From Salinivirgaceae bacterium (GTDB lineage Bacteria > Bacteroidota > Bacteroidia > Bacteroidales > Salinivirgaceae), in assembly GCA_002869335.1 (NCBI GenBank), contig PKTE01000359.1:1-42004 (forward strand): 42,004 nt of DNA, written 5' to 3'. Position 1 is the first letter of the stretch. Every line of letters starts with the position of its first letter. Positions 7,294 through 40,241 of the stretch are shown piece after piece. The notes under the pieces are model-generated. The model made no database searches. It was given only the letters and a program-made list of their open reading frames with translations, and was not told the DNA's origin. The translations under genes were made by a program, and so were the position numbers.

Positions 7294-10200
7294 ATGAAGT
7301 ATTTAGCAGTCATTTTACTGAGTTTTCTTACTATAAACATTACGGCGCAAAACAAAGTCGAATATTCAATTTCAAATGATTGGTATACCAATAAAAATAT
7401 CAATAAGCCTCTTTTTAAAGATGTGTATTTTTTTGATTAAACACCCAATATTCCTTATCATATTATCACAATCGATATTCCAGATAATGCTGAAGTAAAA
7501 AATATCGAATTCAAAAGTACAGAATTTAAATCCTGGAGTAGATTCAATAGTATTATTAATGAAAATCTAAAAAACGAAATTGAGATTATTAATAAGACAA
7601 GCATCACTAAAAAACAAAAACAAGTAGAAATATGGGTTTCATGTGCCATTAATCAAAATGGGAACTATGCCGTATTAGAGAAAGCAGATATTACAGTTAA
7701 TTTGGAATCATCAAGAAACAGTCAAAAAATATCGAGAGATTACCCAGCAAACTCAATTTTATCAACAGGTGAGTGGAAAAAAATAAGCGTTGTAGAAAGT
7801 GGCGTTTATAAAATAACCTACAATCAAATTTCTAATTGGGGACTTGATAATCCTGAAAATATTAGAATTTATGGTTTTGGAGGCAAACAATTATCATTCA
7901 GAGTAAACTCAGATGATCCTTACGAACTACCAGAAGTGCCTATATGGATAAATACAGGAAGTGATGGAATTTTCAACAGTGGAGATTATTTGCTTTTTTA
8001 TGGACAAGGCATTGAAAACAGATATACAATAGATAATGAAACAATCATGGTTAAAGAGCATGATTACACATTAAAAGGACACTATTTCATAACCACATCT
8101 CATGGACCTTCGAGTCAAATAAATACTGTAGATTACAACTCACAATCATCATCAATTACTGTTAATCAATATACAGATGTACAACTGGTAAACTATAGGG
8201 ATAATAATTTAAATCATACAGGAAGAATATTCTTTGGAGAACCTCTCCAACCTGCAGACAGACAAACAATTGAGTTTGATTTCCCCAACCTAGTTTCATC
8301 AGAAAATGTAAAACTAAATGCTCAGGTTGGTGCAATTAGTTCGGGAGTTAATTCCTATATGCGCTATTATCTAAATGATAACTACATCAGTCAGGTTTCA
8401 ATTTTTAAAAGCACCAGTTACTTTAAAGGTCGCGGAGCAACATTTACAACAAACTTAACTGTTCCCGAAGATCAATTTGATTTTACATTTGAATACTCAT
8501 CAACAAATGTTACTGCTCAGGGATATATTGGATATGTTCAGGCTATGGCTAAAAGGCAAATGAAATATATTGGCGAACAACAAATAATGCAGGATCTTGA
8601 CCATATTAATACTTCAGAAATTATTAATTACGAAATTTCTGACTTGCCGGAAAATGCCTTGATTTGGAACATCTCAAACCCTGGAAACCCAGAAAACATT
8701 GCTAAAATGAGCATTAATAGCAGCACAATCAGTTTTAAAAAACCTGCAGATGATGAAAATATGTTCATTGCATTTGAAGAAGATGATGCTTTATCACCTA
8801 GCCTTGAAGGAAGTATTGATAATCAAGATTTATACAATATTGGTTTTTATGATTTTATAATCCTAACTCATCCTGACTTTAAGTCCTATGCTGAAGAGCT
8901 TGCAGAATACCACAGGACAAATGACAACCTATCAGTGCTAGTAATAGACCCACAACCCATTTACAATGAATTTTCGAGTGGTAATCAAGATGTTTCAGCC
9001 ATTAGAAACTTTCTAAAAACACTTTACGATAAAGCAACGAATGAAGAGGAACGACCAAAACACTTACTTTTATTTGGTGACGGCTCTTATGATAATATTT
9101 CAACTACAGATAATACTAACTTTATCCCTACTTTCCAAACAAACAGAATAGATTCCTACTTATCGGTAGCATGTGATGATTTTTTCGTTATGCTTGATGA
9201 AGGAGAAGGTGGTGATGAATTTGATTACTCTTTAAATGGTAAACTTGACATGGGTGTGGGCCGGTTTCCAGTAAACACTGGCAGGCAAGCTGAAATTATT
9301 TTGGAAAAGACATTGGATTATATGCAAAATCCAAATCTTGGACCTTGGAAAAACAATTTAGTATTTGTAGGCGATGACGCTGACAAAACCGATTACTATT
9401 TGCAAGAGGATGCCTATGAGCTTGCAGATATTATTATGACTAATTACAGGTGGATGAATCCAAAACTAATTCTTTTAGATGCTTACCCACAAGAATCTAC
9501 GCCTGCCGGTGAAAGATATCCAGAAGTAACAAAAGCAATAAACGGGCATATCCATAATGGAACTTTAATTTTTAATTATACTGGACATGGAAGTGAAGAA
9601 AGATTGGCGCACGAAGCAATATTGGACAAAAACACCGTTAAAGGTTGGAGCAATGATAAACTACCATTTTTCATGACTGGTTCTTGTGAAGTTAGCCGTT
9701 ACGATAATAAAAACCTCCAATCATTAGGTGAAGCCATTCTGCTAAAAGAAAACGGAGGAGCAATTACTCTTTTTTCAACTACCAGGGTTGTATTTGGGGG
9801 CTCTAACCAAACATTAAGCCGGAACTTTTACAATAACATATTTAAACCCAACGAAGATGGCTCTTATAAAACTTTAGGAGAAGTGATTCAAATCACAAAA
9901 AACAAAACATCAGGTGATAATATGCGAAATTTCACACTATTTGGGAATCCAGCTTTAAGACTAGATATACCACCATTCAGGGTCGTAACCGATTCAATAA
10001 ATGGCAACATGGCTATCAATGAACCTGATACAGTTATTACTGATACTTTAAAAGCATTAAAAAAGATAACTATACACGGACATATTGTTGATTCTTCAAA
10101 TAGCAGACAAAACTTCAATGGAACTATTTATCCGATTGTTTATGATAAAATGAAGAATAAAACCACATTAAATAATGATGATAACAGTAATGGTCCTTTT

Positions 10201-11070
10201 ACATACAGTGAATACAGCAACATTATTTATAAAGGTAAAGCAACCATTGAAAATGGAAAATTCCGTTTTGATTTTATAGTACCTATTGATATTGATTACG
10301 AATTTGGAACAGGTAAAATATCTTTTTATGCCGAAAATAATGAAACGGATGCTTACGGACATTTCGATAATTTTATCGTTGGTGGCTCAGACACAACAAA
10401 CGTATCAGACAATAGCGGTCCGGAAATGTCCCTCTTTATGAACGATACAACTTTTATAAACGGAGGAACAGTTGATGAATCTCCAATGCTTATTGCCAAA
10501 TTATTTGACGATTATGGTGTAAATACTACAGGAAATGTAATAGGCCATGACCTTACAGCAACCTTAAATGGCGATATTCTTAATAAAATTGTATTAAATG
10601 ATTTCTACGAAAATGATCTAAATAGCTATCAATCAGGTAAAATTGAATATCAATTAATAAATCTGGAAGAAGGCACACATACACTTGAAGTAAAAGCCTG
10701 GGATATTTTAAATAATTCCTCAACAGAACTCATCGAGTTTATTGTGGCAAATTCAGAAGATGTGGTTTTATCACATGTACTTAACTATCCTAATCCTTTT
10801 ACAACAAAAACAAGTTTTATTTTTGAACACAATCAACCAAATGAAATCATAGATGTTAGAGTACAAGTATTCACTGTTTCAGGTAAGTTGATAAAAACAA
10901 TGGAAACTACCATAAGTGGAACACAATATATGAATAATCCTATCGTTTGGGATGGAAGGGATGACTTTGGTGATCCTATTGGAAGAGGAGTTTATATATA
11001 TAAGGTGAGATTATCCACATCGGATGGAAAAAGTGGAGAAAAATTTGAAAAGCTTGTAATATTACGATAA
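7294..11070 (+). pseudogene. porU: T9SS C25-family sortase PorU, interrupted by in-frame TAA at codon 49
   Basis: The frame opens at ATG 7294 with a signal peptide (MKYLAVILLSFLTINITAQ), meets TAA at 7438-7440, and continues in the same frame to 11070; full length would be 1258 codons. Downstream sequence is clearly PorU: an N-terminal beta domain (WKKISVVESGVYKITY), then the gingipain-like C25 peptidase domain with YTGHGSEER (His765) and MTGSCEVSRYD (Cys798), and a C-terminal T9SS-type domain from about residue 1165 (NYPNPF, WDGRDD, GRGVYIYKV). PorU cleaves the sorting domain from T9SS cargo at the cell surface and attaches the cargo to A-LPS. It works with PorV, encoded next. No ATG lies between the stop and 7702 in this frame; a TTG at 7702 would lose the signal peptide, so restart cannot give an exported protein. 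Nonsense mutation, sequence error or readthrough are all possible. Confidence 0.85.
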
Positions 11071-11084
11071 TTCCAAAAAAAACT

Positions 11085-11092
11085 TAATTTTG
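11085..11092 (+). promoter_or_regulatory. Candidate -7 box upstream of porV
   Basis: TAATTTTG fits TAnnTTTG and ends 19 nt before the porV ATG, implying a short leader. I see no TTG at the expected distance, so porV may also be read from the porU transcript (gap 41 nt). Confidence 0.35.
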
Positions 11093-11111
11093 TACCCTTA
11101 TTGAAAAAAGA

Positions 11112-12299
11112 ATGATGATGAGAATTTTGAAAATTACAGTAGTTTTAACAGTACTTGTTGGATTAAATATCAATGGGGCATTTGCTCAGTACGACTACAA
11201 TGAGTTGCTTTCAGAGAAAGAATATAACCCAATACGAACGGGAGTTCCTTTTTTGATGATAGCACCCGACTCCAGATCAGCAGGAATGGGAGATGCTGGC
11301 GTAGCTACTACACCAGATGAAGCATCTATTTTTTGGAATCCCGCAAAATTAGGTTTCATTGAAAACGATTTTGGAGCTAATGTATCATACACGCCCTGGT
11401 TAAGACAATTAGTAGATGATATTAGCTTATACTACATTTCTAGTCACTACAGAATTGATGAAAATCAAACTATTGGAGCTTCTATCAGATATTTCTCACT
11501 GGGAGACATCCAATTCACGGATGAAAGTGGTAATGAATTAAACACATTTAACCCAAACGAGTTTGCCATTACTGGTTCATATGGACGTAAATTAGGAGAA
11601 TTTTTCTCAATGGGTATTTCAGCTAAATATATCCATTCAAATTTGACAGGATCAAATACTACTACACACCCAGGTAATGCATTTGCTTTCGATTTAGGTA
11701 TGTTCTATACTAAAGAACTCCGGGTAAACGGACAAAATGCACTTATGAACTATGGTATGAGTTTTACTAATATCGGTTCAACAATCAGTTACTCTGACGA
11801 TATTAAAAACTTTCTGCCAATGAACCTTAGACTTGGTGGTGCCTTTATGTATGAGATTGATGAGTATAATTCAATCGGTGCTACTGTTGACTTTAACAAA
11901 CTTTTAGCTCCGACAACGACTTATATTAAAAACGAAGATGATGACTTTATCATTGCTGAGGAAACCACTGATGTATCAGTAGCCACTGCAATTGTAGAAT
12001 CATTTTATGATGCTCCAGGAATCAATGGAATGAGTCCATTTGAAGAAGAGATTAAAGAGATCAATACTTCTGTAGGGATAGAATATTGGTATGATAAAAA
12101 ACTAGCCTTTCGCTCAGGATTCTTTTACGAACCTAAAGAAAAAGGAAATAGAAAATACGTTACAGTTGGAGCAGGATTTAAACTAAATGTTTTTGGAATT
12201 GATGTTGCATACTTGATTCCTACAACTGCCAACAACCCACTTAAAAACACAATTAGATTCAGTTTACTGTTTAATTTTGATGCTATAGCACAACCATAA
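11112..12299 (+). CDS. porV: T9SS outer-membrane protein PorV (LptO)
   Basis: This 395-residue protein has a signal peptide ending GAFAQ, followed by the PorV hallmark region GVPFLMIAPDSRSAGMGDAG and SIFWNPAKLGFIENDFG, then a FadL-like 14-strand beta-barrel pattern to the C-terminus. PorV is an outer-membrane barrel that collects folded T9SS cargo from the SprA translocon and delivers it to PorU for cleavage and anchoring. The gene follows porU by 41 nt, the conserved porU-porV order in Bacteroidota, and is followed after 1 nt by ispF. The start has three consecutive ATG codons (11112, 11115, and 11109 is not in the set), so the first few residues are uncertain. The gene is intact, in contrast to the interrupted porU before it. 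Confidence 0.92.
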   Translation: MMMRILKITVVLTVLVGLNINGAFAQYDYNELLSEKEYNPIRTGVPFLMIAPDSRSAGMGDAGVATTPDEASIFWNPAKLGFIENDFGANVSYTPWLRQLVDDISLYYISSHYRIDENQTIGASIRYFSLGDIQFTDESGNELNTFNPNEFAITGSYGRKLGEFFSMGISAKYIHSNLTGSNTTTHPGNAFAFDLGMFYTKELRVNGQNALMNYGMSFTNIGSTISYSDDIKNFLPMNLRLGGAFMYEIDEYNSIGATVDFNKLLAPTTTYIKNEDDDFIIAEETTDVSVATAIVESFYDAPGINGMSPFEEEIKEINTSVGIEYWYDKKLAFRSGFFYEPKEKGNRKYVTVGAGFKLNVFGIDVAYLIPTTANNPLKNTIRFSLLFNFDAIAQP

Positions 12300-12300
12300 C

Positions 12301-12780: not shown

Positions 12781-12784
12781 AATA

Positions 12785-13039: not shown

Positions 13040-13044
13040 TTGAG

Positions 13045-13431: not shown

Positions 13432-13495
13432 AATTAATATTTTATTAGTGTGAATATAAGAAAAAAAAATGAGACAATAACTATCCAAAATAAAA

Positions 13496-13521: not shown

Positions 13522-13543
13522 TCACTATTTTATATAATGTCTT

Positions 13544-15690: not shown

Positions 15691-17910
15691 ATGAGCGAAA
15701 ACAAATTAATTGAAATTGCTGCTAAGTATATCAATAGTACAAATAGAAATATTTTTCTTACAGGAAAAGCCGGAACAGGTAAAACTACATTCTTAAGAGA
15801 TATCACAAAAAAAACTCATAAAAATACTATCGTTGCAGCTCCTACAGGTATTGCAGCAATTAACGCTGGTGGTGTAACCTTACACTCATTGTTTCAACTA
15901 CCTTTTGGCACATTTATCCCTGACAGTAAAATACCTCAAGCTTCCTCTCATTTTGAATTGAACAGCAAAGCAACGCTTATCAAAAACTTGAAGCTCAATA
16001 AAGCTAAAAGGCAATTAATATACAGCATCGAGCTACTAATAATTGATGAAGTAAGTATGCTAAGGGCTGATATCCTGGATGCAATAGATACCGTATTAAA
16101 ATATATCAAACGAAATAAACATGCTTTTGGAGGCATTCAAATTCTTTTTATTGGGGACTTATTGCAATTGCCTCCAGTAGTAAAGCAAGATGAATGGAAC
16201 TTACTTAAAAGCTATTATGACAATTTATACTTTTTCAATGCTTTGGCTCTAAAAGAAGAAAAACCAATACACATTGAACTGGAAAAAGTTTATAGGCAAG
16301 AAGACCAGGATTTTATTGACATACTTAACAACTTAAGAAATAACAAACTCACAGACAAAGACATAGAAATTTTAAATAATCACTACAAGCCCTCACCAAA
16401 TCTCAACGAAGATGCAATTTTCATCACTACTCATAACCGTAAAGCTGATAGCATAAATGAAAAAGAGCTAAATAAGTTAACCGGCAGCTCACAAACTTAC
16501 GAAGCCTCCATAAAAAAAGATTTCAATGAATCACAATACCCTATAGATCCTAATATAACACTTAAAAAAGGGGCTAAGGTGATGTTCATTAAAAATGACT
16601 ATTCTGGGGAGCAAAGGTACTTTAATGGAAAAATCGGAACTGTAATTGAACTTGACGATGACGGTCCTGTAGTTGAATTTTCTGATGGCACAGATCCATT
16701 TATTGTTGAACCGTATACATGGGAGAATAAAAGATTTAAGCTCAACAAAGAAACAAATGAAATTGAAACTACGGTTAAGGGTACTTTCACACATTTGCCA
16801 CTTAAATTAGCATGGGCTGTAACTGTTCATAAAAGCCAGGGACTCACATTTGACAAAGCCATAATTGATGTATCAGAAGCATTTGCTCCGGGTCAAATTT
16901 ATGTTGCATTATCGCGCTTAAGATCATTGAATGGCCTTATTTTAAATGCTCCAATTAAGGGAAGAACTCATGACTTTGAAGATGCAATTATTGATTTCAG
17001 CAAGGAAAAGCTAGATTCTGGAATACTGGAAAAAAACTTTAAACCTGATGCATGGAACTATATTGTTTCTTATGCAAAAGAAGCTTTTAATCTTGAAAAC
17101 CTATATTATCAGTTTAAAAACCACGAGGAAAGCTATAATAAATCAACTATTCATTCCAAAAAACAACAATATAAATCTTGGGCAACAGATACAAAGAAAA
17201 GTATTCTCCCATATAAAACAACGGGAGAAAAATTCATTCAGAAAATAAATCAAATTGATTATAATTTTAATGAAAACAATACTGCATGGTTAGTTGAAAA
17301 AATTGATGGCGGTGCTAAATATTTCAATGAGAATTTATCGTTTATAGTTAAATCAATACAGGACCATGCAAAAGAGATAAACGAACAAACAGGCGTGAAA
17401 GCCTATCTAAAGGAGCTTGAAAATCTTGAACTCGCAATTAATTCGCAGATTGAAAAGTTTAATAAAGCCAAAGTATTTACAAAATCATTCATTGAAAACA
17501 CCATACCAAACAAGGCAACATTTTCAAAAGAAAAAAGAGAATCTGATTCAAATAATCCATATGCACCGAAAAAAAAGCAAAAAACACCCTCACATCAAGT
17601 CTCGTTCAATATGTACAAAGACAATATGAGCATTGAAGAGATTGCTGAAGCAAGAAATATGTCACACATTACCATTGAAGGTCATCTGGCAGAACATATT
17701 GAATCAGGAGAAATTGAATATACTGAGCTAATTGAGGAAGAAACTTATCAGCTAATTAAAAAAGCAACTGAAACATTAAAGACATATCACCTCACTCCGA
17801 TAAAAAAAGCTATTAGCAATGATTACAGTTTCAGCGATATAAAAATTGTAATTGCTGCTTTGAAAGCAAAAAAAATGTATAGAGAAGAATTTAGGAATAA
17901 ATCTGATTAA
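15691..17910 (+). CDS. PIF1-like AAA helicase with C-terminal helix-turn-helix domain
   Basis: This is a 739-residue cytoplasmic helicase of superfamily 1. It has Walker A TGKAGTGKTTFL (Lys31), the APTGIAAINAGGVTLHSLF motif, Walker B LLIIDEVSML (Asp119, Glu120), GGIQILFIGDLLQLPPV, and the C-terminal helicase motifs KKGAKVMFIKND and VHKSQGLTFDKAIID plus IYVALSRLRSL. That set is typical of PIF1/RecD-like 5'-3' helicases. The last ~120 residues are lysine-rich and contain a winged-helix/HTH_40-type unit (MSIEEIAEARNMSHITIEGHL), which in related proteins lies behind helicase domains. A likely role is DNA repair or replication-fork maintenance. It stands alone with its own promoter and shares a terminator with the convergent regulator gene. 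Confidence 0.9.
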   Translation: MSENKLIEIAAKYINSTNRNIFLTGKAGTGKTTFLRDITKKTHKNTIVAAPTGIAAINAGGVTLHSLFQLPFGTFIPDSKIPQASSHFELNSKATLIKNLKLNKAKRQLIYSIELLIIDEVSMLRADILDAIDTVLKYIKRNKHAFGGIQILFIGDLLQLPPVVKQDEWNLLKSYYDNLYFFNALALKEEKPIHIELEKVYRQEDQDFIDILNNLRNNKLTDKDIEILNNHYKPSPNLNEDAIFITTHNRKADSINEKELNKLTGSSQTYEASIKKDFNESQYPIDPNITLKKGAKVMFIKNDYSGEQRYFNGKIGTVIELDDDGPVVEFSDGTDPFIVEPYTWENKRFKLNKETNEIETTVKGTFTHLPLKLAWAVTVHKSQGLTFDKAIIDVSEAFAPGQIYVALSRLRSLNGLILNAPIKGRTHDFEDAIIDFSKEKLDSGILEKNFKPDAWNYIVSYAKEAFNLENLYYQFKNHEESYNKSTIHSKKQQYKSWATDTKKSILPYKTTGEKFIQKINQIDYNFNENNTAWLVEKIDGGAKYFNENLSFIVKSIQDHAKEINEQTGVKAYLKELENLELAINSQIEKFNKAKVFTKSFIENTIPNKATFSKEKRESDSNNPYAPKKKQKTPSHQVSFNMYKDNMSIEEIAEARNMSHITIEGHLAEHIESGEIEYTELIEEETYQLIKKATETLKTYHLTPIKKAISNDYSFSDIKIVIAALKAKKMYREEFRNKSD

Positions 17911-23813: not shown

Positions 23814-25010
23814 CTATACAGTTCCCTTCAAAGCAAGTCTGTGAATTAATCTAAATGCATTGAACCCCGTCAAAAGAATAAATACAAGCATTGTAATCAT
23901 CGAAATCTTTATGGCAAACATTGAGTCAAATGTTTTCAAATCGATGTAACGTTCAGCTAAAAATTCAAGAACTCCGGAGGTAACTATATTCATCGCCAAA
24001 ACAGCACCAATAAAAACCAGTGCCGCAATAATTAACTGAACTGTAAAATACAACCCAAATAAAATACGGGGTTTATAACCTAGTAATATAAGTTGGTATA
24101 TTTCATCCTTATTACGCTGAACTGTGAGCTGCAATGTAAGTGCATAAACTATTAGCGCCAATACAATAATTAATCCTGCTATAAAAAGCAGAATTGTTCC
24201 GCTAGTGTGCACAAATAGAGCTACTTTCCCACCCTGAAAAGCATCATGCGTTGTTTCATAGCCATGTTTTTCTAAAAAAGCATATAAATCCTTTTCCATA
24301 TTAGGTTTCAGTTTCAAAACTAATCGGTCAGGTGTCTGCTCTTCATTTTCAGTAAATCGTTTATTAGCCTCAACCAAAAACTCATAGGGTACCAAAAGGG
24401 ATTGAATACGATTTGAGAAGCCAACAATGGAGCCAGTGTACTTTTCGAAATGAAACCGATTATACAATTCCAATTCAAAATTAAATTGTCCAATAAGACT
24501 TTCAGAAACATTGGGTAAACCTTGTGCTTTGGCAAAACCAAAATTATATAGGTTCAAGTATTCTTTAGGTATAATAACAGGTATGTGATTATCTCCTTCC
24601 TGCCAACCCCATTCATCCGGTATTTTATCTAAAAAACGGTCAGGAACAGCTTCGAAAAACATTTCGGTGCGCATATAAGGCATATTTGCAGTACCTTTCC
24701 TTTTGGCCTCTACACCGAACGAGGACCTAACAAATGGGGCAATATCATCCACAAATGGAGCATTTTTGAGCGTGTCTAGTTCTGCATCAGTAAAAGAACT
24801 AAGTGCAGAACTAACAGTATTCAAAAAGTTAATCTTTTTATTAATTGTCACATACTGATCACTATCTCCTTCAGGGCTTTCAGTAAAAGTATTATAAAGA
24901 CTCCAGGCATTAAGGGTAATCATGAGAATCAAAAAGCCCACGAATGCTCCCAAAACAGCACCAATGAAATATCCGACCGGTATGTTACTAAATAATATCT
25001 TCTTAAGCAT
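23814..25010 (-). CDS. FtsX-like ABC transporter permease
   Basis: This 398-residue membrane protein has one N-terminal transmembrane segment (residues ~12-36), a large extracytoplasmic domain of about 220 residues, and three C-terminal segments (from about 265), the MacB/FtsX/LolC plan. The C-terminal part contains YALTLQLTVQRNKDEIYQLI then LGYKPRILFGLYF, the coupling region typical of the family. Starting 1 nt after the ATPase stop, it is the third gene of a tight minus-strand operon. Such systems move lipoproteins or regulate envelope enzymes rather than import solutes. The substrate is unknown. Confidence 0.85.
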   Translation of the reverse strand: MLKKILFSNIPVGYFIGAVLGAFVGFLILMITLNAWSLYNTFTESPEGDSDQYVTINKKINFLNTVSSALSSFTDAELDTLKNAPFVDDIAPFVRSSFGVEAKRKGTANMPYMRTEMFFEAVPDRFLDKIPDEWGWQEGDNHIPVIIPKEYLNLYNFGFAKAQGLPNVSESLIGQFNFELELYNRFHFEKYTGSIVGFSNRIQSLLVPYEFLVEANKRFTENEEQTPDRLVLKLKPNMEKDLYAFLEKHGYETTHDAFQGGKVALFVHTSGTILLFIAGLIIVLALIVYALTLQLTVQRNKDEIYQLILLGYKPRILFGLYFTVQLIIAALVFIGAVLAMNIVTSGVLEFLAERYIDLKTFDSMFAIKISMITMLVFILLTGFNAFRLIHRLALKGTV

Positions 25011-25011
25011 T

Positions 25012-25656
25012 CTACAATATAATTTGTGTACTACCCTCTAAAAATGTCTCTTCATTGAGTTTTGTAACAATAACACCCGCATTTCTCTCTTTACAAACAC
25101 TATGGATCAACTCCGATGCAATACCTGACGTTTCTTTATCTAAATGGCTAAATGGCTCGTCAAGCAGCAACCATTCAAAAGGTTGTGCAAAAGACCTGAT
25201 AATAGCCAGTCGTTGTTGCTGACCGTATGACATAAGTCCAGCCTTTTTATCTAACTGCTCAGCTATTTGAAGCCTTTTTGCATAATCAAAAATTAATTCC
25301 TTATCAATTGTACGAACCAATCTGTTCTTCAACTCTAGATTTTGCCAACCTGTCAAATGCTTAAACAACCTCAAACCCTGAAATACGTAGCTAATTTGCT
25401 CCGATCTTACAGAGGCCCATTTATTTAAAGTAAAACTCTAAATATTTTCATTATTAATAGTGATTTCCCCTTTATAGTCTTTTCGGCGACCAAATATCAT
25501 ATCAAGTAAAGTGGTTTTCCCTTTTCCTGAAGATGCTACAATTTCATAAATTTGGTTGGGTTCGAAAGTAAAATCACCATGATGCCACAGGCTGTCTTTC
25601 ACATACTGCATGCCTTCTAGAGGAAATGGCAAAACATGTGAAAAACTAATTTGCAT
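25012..25656 (-). pseudogene. ABC transporter ATP-binding protein interrupted by in-frame TAG at codon 73
   Basis: ATG 25656 opens a frame with Walker A VASSGKGKTTLLDMIFG (Lys47), then TAG at 25438-25440. The same frame continues without any shift through FTLNKWASVRSEQISYVFQ (Q-loop), the signature SYGQQQR (variant of LSGGQ), Walker B WLLLDEPFSHLD and the end at 25012; full length would be 214 residues, normal for a LolD/FtsE-size ATPase. The stop falls just before the Q-loop, so neither half could work alone. The upstream membrane protein overlaps it by one base-shared TAATG, and the permease starts 1 nt after its end, so the operon layout is intact. The position of the stop would normally hold Gln, Lys or similar, by analogy with related ATPases. 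Confidence 0.82.
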
Positions 25657-26348
25657 TATTTATCGTTATAAAGCGGTTTGCGAATAAAAAAGTAAATAAC
25701 TATTTCAATAAATTCAGCAAAAATATAGGTTGCAAACAGTATCCCAATTGACATAAAGCTACCCATAACTAAGCCCATAAATCCATCTCCAAGTAATTTA
25801 AAATAATCTGAGGCAGTCTCAATAAATACAGCAGCAAATGTGTTACCAACAAACTCATTTACCATTGATGAGCCAATACTACCTGCCATATTACCAAGTG
25901 ATTCAATCGGTGCGTAAGGAATAGCAGCCAATATAATTGCAAAGAATGAAATGAGAGCAGCAGTTACTGGAAGTATTGCAATAGCTTCTCCTATGGTTTT
26001 TATAAATCGTGGGAATAAGAATATAGCTCCACCAAAATCTTTATGTTTAAAATCATTTGCTCTTTTCCAGAATATGGCAGCAATACCTAAAAATAAACCA
26101 GCAGAGATTAAAAATGTAATTACAAAACATATTATTGAACGTACCAATTCAAAATCATTCAATGACTTTAACATTGTTAAGTATCCTGTTTTACCAAGTA
26201 ACCCAGTGACAAGTAGATAAATTCCATAAATTGCAATTCCTACAGCAGCTAATTTGAAAACGAAGTAAAAAACATTTTTAAAAACTTTACCGGCTTGTTG
26301 ATCCAGATTGTCGAGCGGTTTTGCAATTACTTTTGAATAGAATCCCAT
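25656..26348 (-). CDS. Multi-pass membrane protein of unknown function, first gene of an ABC operon
   Basis: This 230-residue protein has about five hydrophobic segments (for example FYFVFKLAAVGIAIYGIYLL, ICFVITFLISAGLFLGIAAI, ILPVTAALISFFAIILAAI and a C-terminal segment IGILFATYIFAEFIEIVIYF). There is a short N-terminal cytoplasmic part (MGFYSKVIAKPLDNLDQQ). The stop codon overlaps the ATPase start (TAATG), so the two are translationally coupled. I know of no function for this type. Its place in the operon suggests it assists the ATPase/FtsX-like permease, which is inference. Confidence 0.7.
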   Translation of the reverse strand: MGFYSKVIAKPLDNLDQQAGKVFKNVFYFVFKLAAVGIAIYGIYLLVTGLLGKTGYLTMLKSLNDFELVRSIICFVITFLISAGLFLGIAAIFWKRANDFKHKDFGGAIFLFPRFIKTIGEAIAILPVTAALISFFAIILAAIPYAPIESLGNMAGSIGSSMVNEFVGNTFAAVFIETASDYFKLLGDGFMGLVMGSFMSIGILFATYIFAEFIEIVIYFFIRKPLYNDK

Positions 26349-26471
26349 TTTTTCGGGTTTTATAAGATTTCTGTACTCAATAATTTTTAAATATAATACG
26401 ATTTTCTTGATTCAGAAAAAAAAATCCCTTTCAGAATGCTATTTTTAGCTATCATAACATTTCATTAGCAT

Positions 26472-27605
26472 TCAGCTAAAATATTGACGACTAAATTTAA
26501 CAACCTTCTCTATTCCCTTGGCAATTTCATTTTTAGGCCTTGCAATATTAAAACGCAAATAATCATTAGCCCTATCACTAAAGTGCATTCCCGGAATAAC
26601 TGCTACAGACTCATCTTCGTATAAATTCATTGCAAACTGGAAACCATCAATTTTATCGGGAAGCTTTGCCCACACATAATAACCACCATAAGCTTTGGGC
26701 ACTTCATATCCTAAATTTACCAGTTCATTTGACATTTGTTCATATGAAGACTTAAGTAGCTTGCGAGTTCGTTCGACATACATTTTTCCGAAAGACTCAC
26801 TTTTTAGATATCTGGAAAGAGCCTCCTGCAAAGGCGCATTGACACAAAGACCAATATAATCATGTATGTCTCTCAAAACCTCAGCGTGCTTTTTGTGACA
26901 AAACAAATAACCTATTCGCCAACCTGTAATGGACAACATTTTACTGAAACTATTAACATAAAAAACATTGACACTAAGCTCTTTTTCAGGCAAATAAATG
27001 GGTTCTTCATACCATAATTCACGATAAACAGCATCAATAATGAGGTAGGCATCATTGCGCTCACAAACTTCACGCAAATCATTCATTTGCTGCTCTGAAA
27101 AGACATATACAAAGGGGTTACCTGGGGAATTAATAAAAATTACGCGAATCTTATTATTTTGAATATATTGTTCAAGCTCCTCCTTTTCAAAATCCAATTT
27201 CTCATACGCATAAAAAGGAAGTTTAAATATACGGGGTAAATGTTTATAGCTTTCATAAACCGGATCAAAGGCCATCACAGCAAAGTCATCATGAATCACA
27301 TAACGGAGATATTGCATTACAAGCGATAATGCTTCAGTAGCTCCCTGAGTTACGAGAAGTTGACTTTCATCGTAGTTTAAATGACTATAATGCGTCAAAA
27401 TTTCCTGTCTTAAGCTTAAATTACCTATTCCCGGAGCATATTGATGGACATTTTCAGAAGCAACCTCAGCCACATATTGAAGCAACTACCCTGGAGGATC
27501 AATACCCGGAATACCCTGGGCAAAGTTTATACCTCCAAATTGTTTCACTTTATTACTCATAAAGCTTATTAAAGAACCTTGAGGAACTTGAAATTGCTTA
27601 ACCAT
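26472..27605 (-). pseudogene. PLP-dependent class I/II aminotransferase interrupted by in-frame TAG at codon 40
   Basis: ATG 27605 starts MVKQFQVPQGSLISFMSNKV, continues INFAQGIPGIDPPG, and meets TAG at 27486-27488. The same frame resumes LLQYVAEVASENVHQYAPG and runs to 26472; full length would be 377 codons. Fold-type I motifs are clear: the YAPGIGNLSLRQ region, NSPGNPFVYVFS, the PLP lysine Lys222 in NSFSKMLSITGWRIGY, and the C-terminal LRFNIARPKNE with the carboxylate-binding Arg. The downstream piece begins with TTG right after the stop, but a product from there would lack the N-terminal arm that closes the active site. It is the last gene of an operon with a MurU-like gene 4 nt upstream. 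Substrate is not deducible; methionine/kynurenine-type aminotransferases are the nearest in appearance. Confidence 0.82.
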
Positions 27606-27609
27606 GTTA

Positions 27610-28347
27610 CTATACTTTTCTTAAATAATATTCTGCGTTTTGTATTCTTTCAGGTGTACCTAAATCAAACCAATTATTAGCATCGTGTAGCCAATTAAAA
27701 ATCTTTAGTTTATTACAATTAGCAACATACCAGGGAATCAATGGAAAAACATCTTCTTTGGGAGCATTTGTTTTTACAACCCCTGCCTCAACCAAATGTA
27801 TTCCACTAAATGCCAAATACTTATCATCATCAGAATCGCTTTTACCAATTGTCTCTCCGGTTTTGAAATTTTTCCAACCTTTAAGCTGATTATCCACAAA
27901 AAGCAGTTTTCTAGAGGTATCTCTTTGGCTTACTGCCATTGTTATATCTGAACGATTTTCAAAATGGTAATCGATTAAAGATGTGTAATTAATTTGAGCA
28001 AAAACATCCACATTATGTACCAAAATTGTTTTTGTTTCATGGTGGAAACCAGCAGCTTTGACTAATCCTCCGCCTGTATCAAGCAATTGATTTGATTCAT
28101 CTGAAATAACTATATCATACTTTGATTGTAAACTGGAAATTTCTGTCATCATAAAATCAGCAAAATGATGGATATTGACAATGAATTTACGAATTCCTAG
28201 GTCAAACATCCTGCTAATTACTCCTTCGAGCATAGTTTTTCCAGCAAAATGCACCAGGGCTTTAGGTTTATTATCCGTTAATGGTTTTAAACGTGTTCCC
28301 AAACCGGCAGCTGGTATAAATGCAACTATATCATCTAATTTAGCCAT
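27610..28347 (-). CDS. Sugar-1-phosphate nucleotidyltransferase, MurU-like
   Basis: This 245-residue nucleotidyltransferase begins with the family loop IPAAGLGTRLKPLTDNKPKALVHFAGK, where the glycines and Arg bind nucleotide and Lys binds the sugar phosphate. Also visible are the metal-binding VHNVDVF, the GGGLVKAA loop and WYDLGTPERI-like end (WFDLGTPERIQNAEYYL). The size and end match MurNAc-1-phosphate uridylyltransferase (MurU) and related short enzymes. The gene overlaps the upstream AmgK-like gene by one base-shared TAATG, which supports a joint role in peptidoglycan recycling: AmgK phosphorylates MurNAc/GlcNAc at C1 and MurU makes the UDP-sugar. The UMP specificity is inferred from this pairing. 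Confidence 0.8.
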   Translation of the reverse strand: MAKLDDIVAFIPAAGLGTRLKPLTDNKPKALVHFAGKTMLEGVISRMFDLGIRKFIVNIHHFADFMMTEISSLQSKYDIVISDESNQLLDTGGGLVKAAGFHHETKTILVHNVDVFAQINYTSLIDYHFENRSDITMAVSQRDTSRKLLFVDNQLKGWKNFKTGETIGKSDSDDDKYLAFSGIHLVEAGVVKTNAPKEDVFPLIPWYVANCNKLKIFNWLHDANNWFDLGTPERIQNAEYYLRKV

Positions 28348-29777
28348 TACAAAGTGTATGATTTGTGCTGCATCATATGATTTACTTTTATTTGAATGTC
28401 AGGAAACATTTCCTTCAGCATTCTGGAAACATTCTCTGCACAATAAACGCTGCGGTGTTGTCCACCTGTGCATCCAAAATTCACAGCCAAATAACTAAAC
28501 CCTCGTTCTTGGTATGCTTCCACATGACGTTTTATTAAACTAAATGTATCATTCAAATATTCATCTACCTCAGGATATTGCTTCAACCATGCCTGTACAT
28601 CAGCATCCATACCAGTCAGCTTTTTATACTCTTGCAATCTACCAGGATTGGGCAGCAGTCTACAATCAAAAGCATATCCGCCACCGTGTCCGCTATAATC
28701 ATTAGGCACACCCCCGTTGATATAAGAGAAACTATTTACTACAACCTGAAAGTTGGAATCTTTTGACACTTTGTAAACATCCCTTTTGTCGATAAGCTCC
28801 AACAAACACCTCTTTAATGTGGGCACAAATTCTAAGGCCACTAAATTAGGAAGTAAGGATACCAAATTATCAAGGGCATAATTTATTGATTGTAGAAAAT
28901 GTGATTTCTTTTGATAAAAGCCACGATATCCATATGCACCAAGTGTTTGCAACACTCGAATGAGAGCAATTGGATAATAATAATTCAAAAATCGCTTTTC
29001 ATCTATATCAACCTTTGTTTTTAGTATTTCGATATAATGCTTAAGCAAAATACTTCTATCGCTGTCTGTAATTCTTGCTTTGGCCTGATACAAAAGTGAA
29101 GCAACATCATATGCCAAAGGACCTCTGCGCCCACCCTGATAATCAATAAACCATGGTTCATCATCTACTAACATAATATTTCTCGACTGGAAATCGCGAT
29201 ACATAAAATAACTAGTATTGTCATTTAAAACATGATCTATTAGTGTTTCAAAATCGTTATTTAAATCCCTATCGCTAAATGCAATATCATTTAATTTAAG
29301 AAAATAGTACTTAAAATAATCCAAATCCCAGCCAACACTGGCTCGATTAAAAGAGTGCACAGGATAAAATTTTGAGTGATCAAATAGATCTGATTTTACA
29401 GTCTGAAAATCTACCAGCTTACCAAGAACATTCTTATACAAATCAATCAGATCCGATCCCAAATATTGATCTGTTCGATTAATCACTTTATCGTACAAAT
29501 GATTATCTCCCAAATCGACTTGCAAGTAATATTTTCGCGATTCATCAATCTGTAAAATTTGGGGCACATTCAGATTTTGTTTTCTGAATATTTCTGTCAA
29601 ATGAAAAAAGGCTTCATTCTCATCTACATTTTCATTATAACAACCAATAACTGATGTTTCTCCATCTGAAAGCCTTGCATATTGTCGACTTGACCCGCTT
29701 TGCTTTAAAAGTTGTATTGTTGTAGGATTTGCTCCTGTGGTATGTGAAAAAAGTTGTTTTAAAATATCTATATTCAT
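28347..29777 (-). CDS. AmgK-type aminosugar kinase fused to a RapZ C-terminal domain
   Basis: This 476-residue two-domain protein has at residues ~1-330 an aminoglycoside-phosphotransferase fold. It has the catalytic MYRDFQSRNIML (Asp195, Asn200) and the metal-binding WFIDYQGGRRGPLAYDVASLL, like AmgK, the anomeric kinase for MurNAc and GlcNAc. Residues ~340-476 match the C-terminal half of RapZ: FSYINGGVPND, GGGYAFDCRLLPNPGR and VNFGCTGGQHRSVYCAE. RapZ's N-terminal P-loop kinase is absent. In Enterobacteria the RapZ C-terminal domain senses GlcN6P and binds small RNAs, so the fusion ties an amino-sugar kinase to an amino-sugar sensing fold; that link is inference. The gene leads an operon with the MurU-like gene and the aminotransferase and has a near-perfect promoter. 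Note FDCRLLPNPG carries the conserved Cys/Arg pair. Confidence 0.85.
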   Translation of the reverse strand: MNIDILKQLFSHTTGANPTTIQLLKQSGSSRQYARLSDGETSVIGCYNENVDENEAFFHLTEIFRKQNLNVPQILQIDESRKYYLQVDLGDNHLYDKVINRTDQYLGSDLIDLYKNVLGKLVDFQTVKSDLFDHSKFYPVHSFNRASVGWDLDYFKYYFLKLNDIAFSDRDLNNDFETLIDHVLNDNTSYFMYRDFQSRNIMLVDDEPWFIDYQGGRRGPLAYDVASLLYQAKARITDSDRSILLKHYIEILKTKVDIDEKRFLNYYYPIALIRVLQTLGAYGYRGFYQKKSHFLQSINYALDNLVSLLPNLVALEFVPTLKRCLLELIDKRDVYKVSKDSNFQVVVNSFSYINGGVPNDYSGHGGGYAFDCRLLPNPGRLQEYKKLTGMDADVQAWLKQYPEVDEYLNDTFSLIKRHVEAYQERGFSYLAVNFGCTGGQHRSVYCAENVSRMLKEMFPDIQIKVNHMMQHKSYTL

Positions 29778-30852: not shown

Positions 30853-30855
30853 AAG

Positions 30856-34046: not shown

Positions 34047-34062
34047 ATCTCAATATTTGATA

Positions 34063-34092: not shown

Positions 34093-34099
34093 AACAATA

Positions 34100-35140: not shown

Positions 35141-35187
35141 GATGATAGATTTAAAAAATTGATCAATAGCAGTAATTACATGTCATA

Positions 35188-35195
35188 CAAATATA
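35188..35195 (-). promoter_or_regulatory. Candidate -7 box for the isoaspartyl peptidase gene
   Basis: Minus-strand TATATTTG fits TAnnTTTG 47 nt upstream of the ATG at 35140. I find no TTG at the correct distance. Confidence 0.35.
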
Positions 35196-35225
35196 ACATT
35201 TGATCAATTATAAATGGAAACAGAA

Positions 35226-35846: not shown

Positions 35847-35859
35847 TGATTAATGTTTT

Positions 35860-38286
35860 TTAGTATAAAATAGGAAATTTGTCTGGTTTAGCTTCATGCA
35901 TCAAATCGTAAACTACTTCAAATACATTTTCCGCATTCGGGTTTGAAAAATAATCACCATCTGAGCTAAATGCGGGTCTATGAGCCTTCGCACTCAATGT
36001 TTTAGGCTCAGCATCCAAATGGAAATAAGCTTTCTGTTCTTCCAATACTTTTTGCATCATATAAGCCGTTGCTCCTCCTGGTACATCCTCATCAAAAAAT
36101 ACCACTCGGCTTGTCTTTTTTATACTTTCAAGTATTGCATGGTCTTTATCAAACGGGATTAAAGTTTGTACATCAATAACCTCTGCTCCGATATTGAATT
36201 CTTTCAATTGTCTGGCAGCCTCCTCTGCAATACGCACACAGGATCCGTATGTTACTATTGTTACATCATCTCCTTCGTGTACAATTTCAGGTTGACCAAT
36301 AGGAACTGTGTATTCACCAATATTTTCAGGAACACGTTCACGCAATCGGTAACCATTCAATGGCTCAATAACCAGTGCAGGTTCATCACTTTGAAGCAGC
36401 GTATTGTACATTCCCGCAGCGTGGGTCAGATCGCGAGGTACACACACTAACATACCACGAATTGAATTAATTACCATACTCAATGGAGAACCTGAATGCC
36501 AAATTCCCTCTAATCGGTGTCCTCGAGTACGAATGATTGCAGGAGCCTTTTGACCTCCTCTTGTACGCCAAAGCAATGTTGCTAAATCGTCGCTCATAGT
36601 TTGCAATGCGTAAAGCAGATAATCAAAATATTGAATTTCAGCGATTGGTCTAATACCTCTTAATGCTAAACCAATAGCTTGTCCCAAAATAGTTGCTTCT
36701 CGTATACCAGTATCTGTAACTCGCAATTCACCATATTTGGCTTGCATGCCTTCCATACCTTGATTGACATCCCCAATTTTACCAGTGTCTTCTCCAAAGG
36801 TTACCACTTCTGGATATTTGGCAAATATTTTATCGAAATTATCTCTTAAAATTTCACGCCCAGGTTTTGTCTCCTCTTTATCGGCATATTTAATAGGAAC
36901 TTCTTTTATTTTAATTGCAGCCTTATCTGTTTCAGAATAAAGGTGCGAATGGTAATCAGGTCCAATTCGCTCATAGTTATCATGAAGCCATGTTCCTAAT
37001 TGCTCTTTTAATTCTTTCCGTTTAGGACAATCCATACAGATATTCCGAAGAATACGTTTGGCAGCACTAAAATTATCTTTTCGAATAGGGAATGCTATTC
37101 TTTTAAGATTTTGCGCTATTTCTCCAGCTTTATCGTAATGATCACGTTTACATTTACATGTGCGCGTTTCTATAATCTTAACCAGCTTATCACGTTCTTC
37201 TTTCAATGGTTTTGTGAAAGCATTCCAGGCATTTTTCTTAGCTGATTTTGCCTCATCAGAGGCCTTTTTTTCGATTGCTTCTAATTCTTTTTCAGTAGCT
37301 ACGCCCTCTTTTAAAATCCATTCTTTCATTTTCAGAATTGGATCGAACTGCTGCTCCCATTCCAAACGCTCTTTCGATTTATAACGCTCATGCGATCCAC
37401 TGGTAGAATGACCTTGTGGCTGGGTAACCTCCTCAATATGAAATAATACCGGGACATGTTCTTTTCTTGCTTTCTCTACTCCTTTTTCATATAATTCAAC
37501 CAACGAAGGATAATCCCATCCTTTACCTTTCATGATGTAAATTCCAGTTTGTCCTTTTTTCTTAATCTCAAAACCGGCTAATGCTTCAGAAATAGAACTC
37601 TTCGTAGTCTGATATTCTTTTGGAACGCTGATTCCATAACCATCATCATAAACTGACATCACCATAGGTACCTTTAATACTGCTGCAGCATTCATGGTTT
37701 CCCAAAAATGCCCTTCTGATGTACTAGCATCACCTATAGTTCCAAAAGCAACCTCATTGCCTTTATCAGTAAATTTCTTCATGTTGTGCAAATCTTCAAC
37801 TCCTCTGAAAATTTTAGAAGCATACGCTAAACCAAGTAAGCGTGGCATTTGCCCGGCAGTTGGTGAAATATCAGCTGATGAATTTTTTTGTGCCATCAGA
37901 TTTTTCCATTCCCCATTTTCATCTAAGCTTCGAGTTCCAAAATGGTTATTGAATGAACGACCACCATGGCTTGGATTATGTTTTAAGCTTGTATGTCCAT
38001 ATAATGATGCAAAGAATTCTTCAGGGGTATACATATCAGTTGCCAGCATTAAAGTTTGGTCACGATAATACCCAGACCTCCAATCTCCCTTTTTAAACTG
38101 ACGAGCCATTGCCAATTGTACAATTTCTTTCCCATCCCCGAAAATTCCAAACTTGGATTTCCCGGTAAGCACTTCTTTTCTTCCTAAAAAACTTAATTGC
38201 CGACTTAAATGAGCAGTATAATAATCTTCTAAAACACTTTTTTTGGATAATAAACTGTTAGTTTTCGCGGTTTTTTGATTTGCCAT
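35860..38286 (-). CDS. 2-oxoacid dehydrogenase E1, alpha and beta subunits fused
   Basis: This 808-residue thiamine-diphosphate enzyme decarboxylates a 2-oxoacid (pyruvate or branched-chain type) and hands the acyl group to an E2 lipoyl enzyme. The N-terminal half is E1 alpha: GTIGDASTSEGHFWETMNAA is the TPP/Mg loop, with YDDGYGIS following. The C-terminal half is E1 beta: YPEVVTFGEDTGKIGDVNQG, RVTDTGIREATILGQAIGLA and YFDYLLYALQTMSDDLATL, with VVFFDEDVPGGATAYM near the end. Between them, about residues 330-470, is an extra helical linker with two cysteine pairs (Cys377/Cys379 and Cys417/Cys420). E1 alpha/beta fusions of this length occur in Bacteroidota. No E2 or E3 gene is nearby, so the specific oxoacid is uncertain. 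Confidence 0.9.
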   Translation of the reverse strand: MANQKTAKTNSLLSKKSVLEDYYTAHLSRQLSFLGRKEVLTGKSKFGIFGDGKEIVQLAMARQFKKGDWRSGYYRDQTLMLATDMYTPEEFFASLYGHTSLKHNPSHGGRSFNNHFGTRSLDENGEWKNLMAQKNSSADISPTAGQMPRLLGLAYASKIFRGVEDLHNMKKFTDKGNEVAFGTIGDASTSEGHFWETMNAAAVLKVPMVMSVYDDGYGISVPKEYQTTKSSISEALAGFEIKKKGQTGIYIMKGKGWDYPSLVELYEKGVEKARKEHVPVLFHIEEVTQPQGHSTSGSHERYKSKERLEWEQQFDPILKMKEWILKEGVATEKELEAIEKKASDEAKSAKKNAWNAFTKPLKEERDKLVKIIETRTCKCKRDHYDKAGEIAQNLKRIAFPIRKDNFSAAKRILRNICMDCPKRKELKEQLGTWLHDNYERIGPDYHSHLYSETDKAAIKIKEVPIKYADKEETKPGREILRDNFDKIFAKYPEVVTFGEDTGKIGDVNQGMEGMQAKYGELRVTDTGIREATILGQAIGLALRGIRPIAEIQYFDYLLYALQTMSDDLATLLWRTRGGQKAPAIIRTRGHRLEGIWHSGSPLSMVINSIRGMLVCVPRDLTHAAGMYNTLLQSDEPALVIEPLNGYRLRERVPENIGEYTVPIGQPEIVHEGDDVTIVTYGSCVRIAEEAARQLKEFNIGAEVIDVQTLIPFDKDHAILESIKKTSRVVFFDEDVPGGATAYMMQKVLEEQKAYFHLDAEPKTLSAKAHRPAFSSDGDYFSNPNAENVFEVVYDLMHEAKPDKFPILY

Positions 38287-38321
38287 GATATCTATTTTTT
38301 CTCTATATGACTAAATTTTGG

Positions 38322-38329
38322 TATTTTTG
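38322..38329 (+). promoter_or_regulatory. Candidate -7 box upstream of the small membrane protein gene
   Basis: TATTTTTG matches TAnnTTTG, ending 29 nt before ATG 38359. The upstream -33 position is T-rich but not a clean TTG. Confidence 0.35.
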
Positions 38330-38358
38330 TACACTTCACAAACAAAATAATTTGCCTA

Positions 38359-38616
38359 ATGTTGATGCTAAAGGTTTTTTTAATTAGTTTAGGTTTGATG
38401 GCCATTGCTTTTGCAGCGCTGGGCATTAGAATTCTTATCAAGAAAAAAGGACAGTTTCCACACACTCATATTGGTGGAAATAAAGAGATGATAAAGCGCG
38501 GAATATACTGTGCACAAACTTTTGATAAGATTGAACAGAAAAAAGTTCAAAAAGAAAGACGAAAAGAAGCGTTAAAAAAGCTAAAACCAGATCCCGACTT
38601 TTTAACCGCTCAGTAG
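38359..38616 (+). CDS. Small single-pass membrane protein with basic C-terminal tail
   Basis: This 85-residue protein has one hydrophobic segment (VFLISLGLMAIAFAALGIRIL, shown here as residues ~5-25) followed at once by IKKKGQFPHTHIGGN, then Gly-Ile-Tyr-Cys, and a strongly basic helix (KVQKERRKEALKKLK). The short motif FPHTHIGGN after the membrane segment is characteristic of a small Bacteroidota protein family that I know only as uncharacterised. It faces a convergent, shorter gene whose N-terminal half is similar. Function unknown; the tail may bind a nucleic acid or anionic lipid, which is speculation. Confidence 0.7.
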   Translation: MLMLKVFLISLGLMAIAFAALGIRILIKKKGQFPHTHIGGNKEMIKRGIYCAQTFDKIEQKKVQKERRKEALKKLKPDPDFLTAQ

Positions 38617-38629
38617 TGAAAAAAAGAAA

Positions 38630-38656
38630 AGTGGCAGCCAAGGCTTGACTACCACT
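38630..38656 (-). terminator. Terminator downstream of the small Cys-rich gene
   Basis: AGTGG-CAG-CAAG pairs with CTTGACTACCACT, a stem of 11-13 bp with two G-T wobbles. On the minus strand it is followed by TTTTCTTTTTTTC, the T run expected for termination of the gene at 38691-38864. It may also stop the plus-strand gene ending at 38616. Confidence 0.6.
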
Positions 38657-38690
38657 AATCACATCATGAAAAATCCCAAAATCAAAAGAA

Positions 38691-38864
38691 TCATCTATCA
38701 CTATTTACACTACATGCGCATCCGGGTGTTTCGGAATTAGTTGTGCTACAACACGACTCCTTCTCAAACGTTCCATTCTTTTTAAGCAAAACTTTTATTC
38801 CGATCCCGGAAAAAGCTAATGCTAAAAGCACAATAGTAATCCCTATTAATTGTAATATTTCCAT
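38691..38864 (-). CDS. Small membrane protein with cysteine cluster
   Basis: ATG 38864 opens a 57-residue frame ending in TGA. Residues ~4-27 form one membrane segment (LQLIGITIVLLALAFSGIGI), then KVLLKKNGTFEKES, and a tail with four cysteines: Cys38-Cys39, then Cys49-Ala-Cys51. The stretch GIKVLLKKNGTF mirrors GIRILIKKKGQF in the convergent neighbour, so the two are probably paralogues with different tails. The Cys cluster could bind a metal or Fe-S cofactor, which is inference. A terminator hairpin follows the stop, supporting a real transcript. Similar short Cys-rich membrane proteins occur in Bacteroidota, function unknown to me. Confidence 0.6.
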   Translation of the reverse strand: MEILQLIGITIVLLALAFSGIGIKVLLKKNGTFEKESCCSTTNSETPGCACSVNSDR

Positions 38865-39005
38865 TATATAATATCGTATCTTTTTATCCGATTAACAAAG
38901 TGATTCGAGAAATGTTTTCATTTTTAGGAAAAATTTTAAAAAAAATTTACGATTTAACTCCCATTATTTCGTATTTTTATCTCAAATACAATAAACAGAG
39001 CCAAT

Positions 39006-39593
39006 ATGAGGACATTCGATCAGATAAAGAAATTTCTAGCAGACAAAAAAGTCGGAATTGCCGGAGCCGGTGGTTTAGGTTCAAATGTTGCCACGAGCTT
39101 AGCCCGTTGTGGCATTGGGCATCTGGTAATAGCAGATTATGACTCTGTAACAGCAGACAGTTTAAACAGACAATACTTTTTTTACGATCAGATTGGTAGA
39201 AAAAAAGTAGATGCTCTACAACATATTTTAGGAAAAATTAATCCTGATACTAAGGTAGAAGCCCACGATATAAAGCTTACAGAAGATAAAGTAATTGAGC
39301 TTTTTAGTGATTGTGAAGTAATTGTAGAAGCTATTGGAGATGCGCGTATTAAGCAAAGATTAATTGAATCAGTACTGGTTAAATTGCCAGAGAAAAATCT
39401 TGTAATAGCATCTGGACTAGCGGGTTACGGTAACAATAATCGATTCACAACTGAACAATACGACAAGTTGTGGGTATGTGGTGATCAAGAGGCTGAAGTA
39501 CATCAACTTAACCCTCCTCTTTCACCGGGAGTAGGCATTGTAGCGAACATGCAGGCAAATGTTGTATTAGAATTATTACTTGCCAAAGACTAA
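39006..39593 (+). CDS. thiF: ThiF/MoeB-family sulfur-carrier adenylyltransferase (short form)
   Basis: This 195-residue E1-like enzyme activates the C-terminal glycine of a ThiS-type protein by adenylation. The Rossmann nucleotide loop is VGIAGAGGLGSNVATSLARCG, then LVIADYDSVTADSLNRQYF with the conserved Asp/Arg that bind ATP, and VEAIGDARIKQRLIE. It matches the short ThiF family of ~200 residues that lacks the zinc-binding CxxC motifs of MoeB/ThiF long forms. A thiS-like gene follows after 121 nt. No thiC, thiE, thiG or thiH gene is in the window, so participation in thiamine synthesis is inferred from the thiS neighbour. Confidence 0.85.
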   Translation: MRTFDQIKKFLADKKVGIAGAGGLGSNVATSLARCGIGHLVIADYDSVTADSLNRQYFFYDQIGRKKVDALQHILGKINPDTKVEAHDIKLTEDKVIELFSDCEVIVEAIGDARIKQRLIESVLVKLPEKNLVIASGLAGYGNNNRFTTEQYDKLWVCGDQEAEVHQLNPPLSPGVGIVANMQANVVLELLLAKD

Positions 39594-39623
39594 TTGTTTG
39601 AATCAACTATATTACTATTTTTG
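39594..39623 (+). promoter_or_regulatory. Promoter of thiS and the DivIC-like gene
   Basis: TTG, exactly 19 nt, TATTTTTG: a full match to the Bacteroidota consensus, starting right at the thiF stop. The leader to thiS is about 85 nt and shows no TPP riboswitch core. Confidence 0.6.
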
Positions 39624-39714
39624 TAGGGGTCAAAATAAGCAAAAGAATTAAATCACAACTGCGCATCAAGTAACTCAAGCAGTGTGACTTAGCAAATTTA
39701 AGATTTAATAGAAA

Positions 39715-39918
39715 ATGAAGATATTTATTAATCGTAATGAGGAAGAGTTTGATGGAGACAAATTAGCTCTTTATGAATTACTTGAAAAAAAGGAACTTAC
39801 ATTCAAGCGCTTGCTTATCAGGGTGAATGGTGAAGTTATAAATGAGGAAAATAAAAGCAGTGTTATTCTTAATGAAGGAGACCAGCTTGATATAGTAAGA
39901 ATCATTAGTGGAGGCTGA
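39715..39918 (+). CDS. thiS: ThiS-like sulfur carrier protein
   Basis: This 67-residue ubiquitin-like protein ends in the required Gly-Gly (RIISGG), where ThiF forms an acyl-adenylate and sulfur is loaded as thiocarboxylate. The fold pattern MKIFINRNEEEF, LYELLEKKELTFKRLLIRVNGEVI and LNEGDQLDIVRII is typical of ThiS (ALLxxL, VNG, GDxxxIxxxIxGG). It follows thiF with its own promoter and precedes the DivIC-like gene by 8 nt. A TGA stop ends it. Use in thiamine thiazole synthesis is the normal role. Confidence 0.9.
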   Translation: MKIFINRNEEEFDGDKLALYELLEKKELTFKRLLIRVNGEVINEENKSSVILNEGDQLDIVRIISGG

Positions 39919-39926
39919 TTTTAAAA

Positions 39927-40241
39927 ATGAAAAAAGCAAACAAACTATACCGATTTTATCAAAAATACCTGGCTAACAAATTCGTGTTAGCCTCTTTGGT
40001 ATTTATTGTTTGGATGCTTTTCCTAGATACGAACAACCTGATTCAAAGAGTTAAAACAATAAGTCATATCAATAAACTCCAAGAACAAAAAGCTTATTAC
40101 GAAGAAAGAATAGAAGAAGACAAATAAAAACTTATCGAATTACGATCAGACAAAAATAAATTGGAAAAATTTGCTCGTGAGCAATATCTAATGAAAAAAG
40201 AAAATGAAGATATCTTCGTTATACTAATTGACGAAGATTAA
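39927..40241 (+). pseudogene. DivIC/FtsB-like septum formation initiator, interrupted by in-frame TAA at codon 67
   Basis: ATG 39927 starts a short basic cytoplasmic tail, then a membrane segment (FVLASLVFIVWMLFL), then a coiled coil (IQRVKTISHINKLQEQKAYY). TAA lies at 40125-40127. The same frame continues KLIELRSDKNKLEKFAREQY, LMKKENEDIFVILIDED and ends at TAA 40239-40241; full length is 104 codons. The FAREQYLMKKENEDIFVI block is the conserved end of Bacteroidota DivIC/FtsB, which joins FtsQ and FtsL in the divisome and is normally important for division. The 66-residue piece alone would lack this end. The true end overlaps the convergent glycosyltransferase gene by 23 nt. Lys or Gln at the stop position would fit related proteins. 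Confidence 0.82.

Follow-up and report, generated by a model that had tools for sequence, protein, structure and literature searches.

Stop codons are recoded by suppressor transfer RNAs (tRNAs) in crAss-like phages of Bacteroidetes. In-frame stops can also mislead: among the cases that Shulgina and Eddy (2021; PMC8629427) discuss are false stop-codon reassignments arising from in-frame stops in yeast pseudogenes, which are taken as erroneous inferences. Here we analysed contig PKTE01000359.1 of the Salinivirgaceae draft assembly GCA_002869335.1 (G000), a stretch of 42,004 nucleotides (the window), in which four genes each appear broken by a single in-frame stop: porU, an ABC transporter ATPase gene, an aminotransferase gene and a DivIC-like gene. 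Most likely these stops reflect wrong letters in a draft genome rather than a novel use of the genetic code. More precisely, the four window stops are very probably substitution errors that entered the consensus sequence of a draft assembly of metagenome type. The original prediction named substitution-type error as the simplest reading, and of the explanations considered it is the one best supported by the present analysis. It is favoured because the stops lie in unrelated genes, the residues of relatives at these sites are mixed, no stop-reading tRNA was found and the spectrum of the stops fits random substitution.

In-frame stops in the window and elsewhere in the assembly

All four stops were confirmed. 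From the codon after each of them the reading frame continues with sequence typical of the gene's family, and in three of the four genes a single Pfam domain spans the stop. For porU, the domain search gave no Pfam match at the stop, and 14 of 19 relative loci align across it. The open, family-specific sequence on both sides of the four stops is more than chance and is not random. As originally remarked, none of the four genes needs a frameshift. The original prediction also pointed to the lack of TGA among the four stops, which is true but unremarkable (P = 0.33, assuming uniform substitutions).

The assembly comprises 4.32 Mb in 364 contigs and is 85% complete and 3.45% contaminated, with 35% G+C; the window is one of its contigs. 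This G+C content and the porU family point to Bacteroidota. We scanned 1,262,320 bases of it (29%), window included, for stops that have coding-like sequence on both sides and no nearby ATG. A stop was counted as supported if a domain match or a family alignment extended across it. The scan recovered 898 of 1500 simulated single stops (60%). It replaced an earlier, strict coding-potential scan that missed all four window genes, and it still misses the window ABC ATPase. Altogether, 35 candidates were obtained: 11 were supported, five appeared likely by eye (L015, L025, L030, L040, L138) and the other 19, lacking support, were discarded. The 11 supported stops lie in three window genes and in eight genes elsewhere, coding for malate dehydrogenase, a SurA-like isomerase, threonyl-tRNA synthetase, an S51 peptidase, phosphomannomutase, a transglutaminase-like protein, PurH and an HpcH/HpaI aldolase. 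Two further supported stops lie outside the scan filter, in the window ABC ATPase and in an ABC ATPase on contig L136, which gives 13 supported in-frame stops in the scanned sequence, nine of them outside the window. The original prediction depended on further conserved genes with in-frame stops elsewhere in the genome, and such genes do exist. They are spread over unrelated functions, essential ones included.

The 13 supported stops are nine TAA, three TAG and one TGA. Uniform substitution predicts TAA, TAG and TGA in the proportion 48:28:24%, and the probability of at most one TGA in 13 is 0.14; with these small numbers, the spectrum is compatible with random substitution. About one in twenty random coding substitutions yields a stop. 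For the whole assembly we estimate roughly 60 to 90 stops (from the 11 supported stops and from 16 with the likely ones included, respectively), which implies a substitution rate of about 0.05-0.07% per base if substitutions are uniform. For the window, the implied rate is about 0.2% per base (uniform substitutions, 90% coding assumed). The error rate in the consensus is therefore perhaps about 0.05-0.2% per base. Candidates for frameshifts, none of them checked by homology, numbered nine in the 1,262 kb of G000 and 10 in 400 kb of the congener G002. This absence of an excess agrees both with substitution error and with the original remark that the stops occur without frameshifts.

Two further counts were set aside. 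In a no-start scan, nonsense candidates numbered 35 in G000 and four in G002, with a possible TGA case on L111; by eye many were antisense noise, and the scan did not enter the counts. A first homology tally against the 400 kb of G002 showed little overlap, consisted mostly of antisense open reading frames (ORFs) and was not used.

Coordinates of the broken genes, their in-frame stops and the overlapping contig ends. Positions without a contig label are those of the window.
Feature	Position	Strand	Remarks
porU (type IX secretion C25 peptidase/sortase family), broken at codon 49	7294..11070	+	Peptidase_C25 at residues 521-890
In-frame TAA in porU	7438..7440	+	ATG 7294; frame open again to 11070
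ABC transporter ATPase, broken at codon 73	25012..25656	-	ABC_tran 28-169 crosses the stop
In-frame TAG in ABC ATPase	25438..25440	-	ATG 25656, end 25012
Class I/II aminotransferase, broken at codon 40	26472..27605	-	Aminotran_1_2 30-371 crosses the stop
In-frame TAG in aminotransferase	27486..27488	-	ATG 27605, end 26472
DivIC/FtsB-like septum gene, broken at codon 67	39927..40241	+	DivIC domain 30-105 crosses the stop
In-frame TAA in DivIC-like gene	40125..40127	+	ATG 39927, end 40241
Contig-end overlap segments	L052:1-362, L053:1-362, L126:1-280, L017:1-344, L004:1-311, L013:12956-13128, L007:3064-3615

At window positions 27610-29777 (minus strand), a sugar-nucleotide transferase-like gene adjoins a long gene, which by eye we take to consist of a kinase and a part resembling the C-terminus of RapZ.

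Residues in relatives and the translation machinery

In both congeners (G001 and G002), the orthologues are open at all four window sites. porU was matched in 56 of 60 genomes, the source assembly included, and no listed match except that of the source assembly has a stop; the congener proteins are 61-65% identical over nearly the whole length. For the ABC ATPase, the stop is confined to G000 among the matches listed. Close relatives of the aminotransferase and DivIC-like genes are open, but a few more distant matches are listed with one stop. Three of these were examined, and none breaks the gene at the window site: L153 and L198 have their stop at the C-terminal end of the match, and the aligned part of L202, which covers the window site, is open. 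A distant match in genome G027 that is listed with a TGA was not among the three. Within the source assembly, the region of the aminotransferase and ABC ATPase genes (window 25000-27620) has no second match at the DNA level; for the aminotransferase only distant protein paralogues were found (at most 26% identity), and the DivIC-like gene has one match.

All four window stop sites are variable among relatives. At the porU site (n = 14), Gly was found four times, Ser, Leu and Pro twice each and Thr, Asn, Val and Asp once each. The ABC ATPase site (n = 7) has Asn and Arg twice each and Ala, Ser and Thr once each, and the aminotransferase site (n = 10) has Glu four times, Ala three times and Leu, Gln and Cys once each. 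In DivIC (n = 19), relatives carry Arg (4), Lys (3), Thr (3), Ile (3), Ala (2), Glu (2), His (1) and Gln (1). The original suggestion that the four codons once specified Gln, Lys or Glu was only weakly borne out: the two congeners carry Ser/Thr, Ala/Ala, Asn/Asn and Ala/Glu at these positions.

Outside the window, several stops strike conserved sites. In threonyl-tRNA synthetase, which is 90% identical to its congeners and of which one full-length copy was found in G000, the TAA stands at a Tyr site (Tyr in seven of eight relatives, Phe in the eighth). The malate dehydrogenase site is Gly in all five distinct relative genes, counting a twice-listed G002 gene once and leaving out the second row of G000 itself, and the phosphomannomutase site is Phe in six of six orthologues and Val in three distant paralogues. 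At the PurH site (n = 8), Glu occurs five times, Ala twice and Lys once. Printed alignments with solved relatives show Glu for the SurA-like protein (one alignment), Glu for the L136 ABC ATPase (two alignments) and Gln, Glu and Asp for HpcH (three alignments). The structure-database search gave a gap and one Val at the stop position of the S51 peptidase; for the transglutaminase-like candidate it yielded two weak matches (E 0.08), neither reaching the stop. One consistent residue was not found at the in-frame stops, with Tyr, Gly and Phe at conserved sites and Ser/Thr, Ala/Glu, Asn, Arg and Lys at variable ones. Since no single amino acid fits all stop sites, no single suppressor tRNA explains the stops.

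The malate dehydrogenase stop lies in a region (L012:11205-13260, minus strand) with two adjoining malate dehydrogenase-like genes that are about 65% identical, only one of which has an in-frame stop. A malate dehydrogenase paralogue that had been listed with a stop was dropped, because its stop precedes the start codon.

None of the 35 tRNAs found by an Rfam search of the 85% complete assembly has a stop anticodon (CUA, UUA or UCA), and ARAGORN assigns an anticodon to all of them. With loosened ARAGORN settings, stop anticodons appeared in 1 of 39 cases at 90% and in 36 of 479 at 80%, which we take for noise. The gene for release factor 1 (RF1) is open and family-typical, scoring 514.9 bits against a curated cut-off of 423.25. 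A second open release factor paralogue matches more weakly and is presumably RF2. A tmRNA is present. The terminators of 595 long ORFs are TAA in 417 cases, TAG in 126 and TGA in 52. Neither loss or change of a release factor nor an avoided terminator stop was found among these genes and ORFs, and global reassignment, already discounted in the original prediction, is made very unlikely by the use of TAA, TAG and TGA alike as terminators of ordinary genes.

Another possibility raised by the original prediction was that a suppressor tRNA or weak termination lets some of the stops be translated as sense codons. The intact family sequence after each stop and the involvement of an essential gene speak for this, and the tRNA set of the incomplete assembly may itself be incomplete. 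Against it stand the lack of stop anticodons in the tRNAs found, the two open release factor genes, the TGA that is affected besides TAA and TAG, and the stops at conserved Tyr, Gly and Phe sites, and we consider it highly improbable. With no stop-reading tRNA found, RF1 and its paralogue present and three stops ending genes, suppression or reassignment in general is very unlikely. It would be just as improbable that a Bacteroidota-like lineage reads through all three stops at a general low level and tolerates many nonsense mutations, essential genes included, perhaps on a mutator background of G:C-to-T:A changes.

Contig ends and rival explanations

Contig ends that overlap allow two copies of the same stretch to be compared. 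Six pairs are inexact (93-99% identity, 93 differences in 2022 bases); another four overlap without any difference, over 96-99 bases. The two copies in L052/L053 differ by a stop in one and Ser in the other. In L126/L131, the Asp of an HxHxDH motif in one copy is replaced by Tyr in the other; we take this segment by eye to be metallo-beta-lactamase-like, and the difference strikes what appears to be a metal-binding motif. The five coding pairs (the non-coding pair L007/L010 being left out) contain 67 differences, 43 synonymous, of which 24 are transitions, and 24 nonsynonymous. The A/C and G/T classes, which correspond to G:C-to-T:A changes, make up 14 of the 24 nonsynonymous and 8 of the 43 synonymous differences (P 0.0023).

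If the stops are substitution errors, wrong single bases would be scattered through the contigs, and the fraction that creates stops would be the one that is noticed. The living organism would have intact genes and use the standard code. Many of the errors might be G:C-to-T:A changes, as from oxidised guanine in the library. We infer that the bases are wrong rather than truly mutated, that the contigs form a metagenome bin and that the cause may be chemical.

Several observations weigh against substitution error. The single-contig congener G002 gave seven scan hits in 400 kb with one supported stop, and the comparison of 11 supported stops in 1,262 kb of G000 with this one is not significant (P 0.18, with a small control). 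This one supported stop of G002 is an in-frame TAA at 16981 (L100, minus strand), inside the domain of an NYN-domain gene. Missense changes at otherwise invariant columns of eight genes numbered 14 in G000 (two stops left out), 13 in G002 and eight in G001, which is no clear excess; at the error rates inferred above, an excess of only about 1-4 is to be expected, so that this comparison has little power. The phosphomannomutase stop (L029:4185-4187) is more than one base change away from any Phe codon, and a single-base error is thus no simple explanation for it. The window is denser in stops than the remaining sequence, with three scan hits against about 0.5 expected (P about 0.017, or 0.003 with all four stops), having been picked for its stops. 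The L052/L053 overlap lies within SprB repeats, so that its two ends could represent separate units of the repeat. The lean to G:C-to-T:A was noticed post hoc; its P value is 0.019 against other transversions and 0.17 without L052/L053. Because the lean is weak once re-tested, oxidised guanine is proposed as no more than a possible cause.

Such stops could also be genuine mutations that arose recently in the sampled cells, for example in a mutator lineage biased towards G:C-to-T:A, or they could stem from alleles of a mixed population that the assembly has merged. The copies at contig ends differ by 1-7%, and many of the differences are synonymous, with transitions frequent among them, as in strain variation; the lean of the nonsynonymous differences to A/C and G/T likewise agrees with this explanation. 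However, threonyl-tRNA synthetase was found in one full-length copy only, in which a stop would be expected to be lethal, and decay would add frameshifts, whose candidates are not in excess in the scan. We regard real mutations or merged alleles as unlikely. Real stops would mean that the organism copes with nonsense in threonyl-tRNA synthetase, a remarkable tolerance. Ordinary gene decay would be conceivable for genes that could be dispensable, such as those for the aminotransferase and the ABC ATPase, but the stops are nonsense changes without frameshifts in otherwise well-conserved genes for translation, purine synthesis and division, and decay is hardly credible as their source.

Comparison with known systems

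For draft assemblies, genes that appear broken by nonsense only call for a genome-wide check before recoding is claimed. Such claims can be checked quickly by asking which residues relatives have at conserved positions, which tRNAs are present and whether overlapping contig ends agree. With the recoding in crAss-like phages, the G000 genes share in-frame stops in otherwise intact genes; they differ in that no suppressor tRNA was found, no consistent residue fits the sites and all three stops still end genes.

The cases discussed by Shulgina and Eddy (2021; PMC8629427) resemble ours in that in-frame stops are aligned to a family consensus and no suppressor tRNA was found. Those discussed there concern yeast pseudogenes, whereas in G000 the stops lie in conserved bacterial genes and are argued to be wrong bases.

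Substitution errors of draft or metagenome-assembled genomes are the known kind of case to which we assign the stops. G000 departs from them in a stop density above that of the sampled congener, although not significantly so, and in a possible G:C-to-T:A bias. It shares with them stops scattered through conserved genes, with no common residue and no matching tRNA, in a fragmented assembly.

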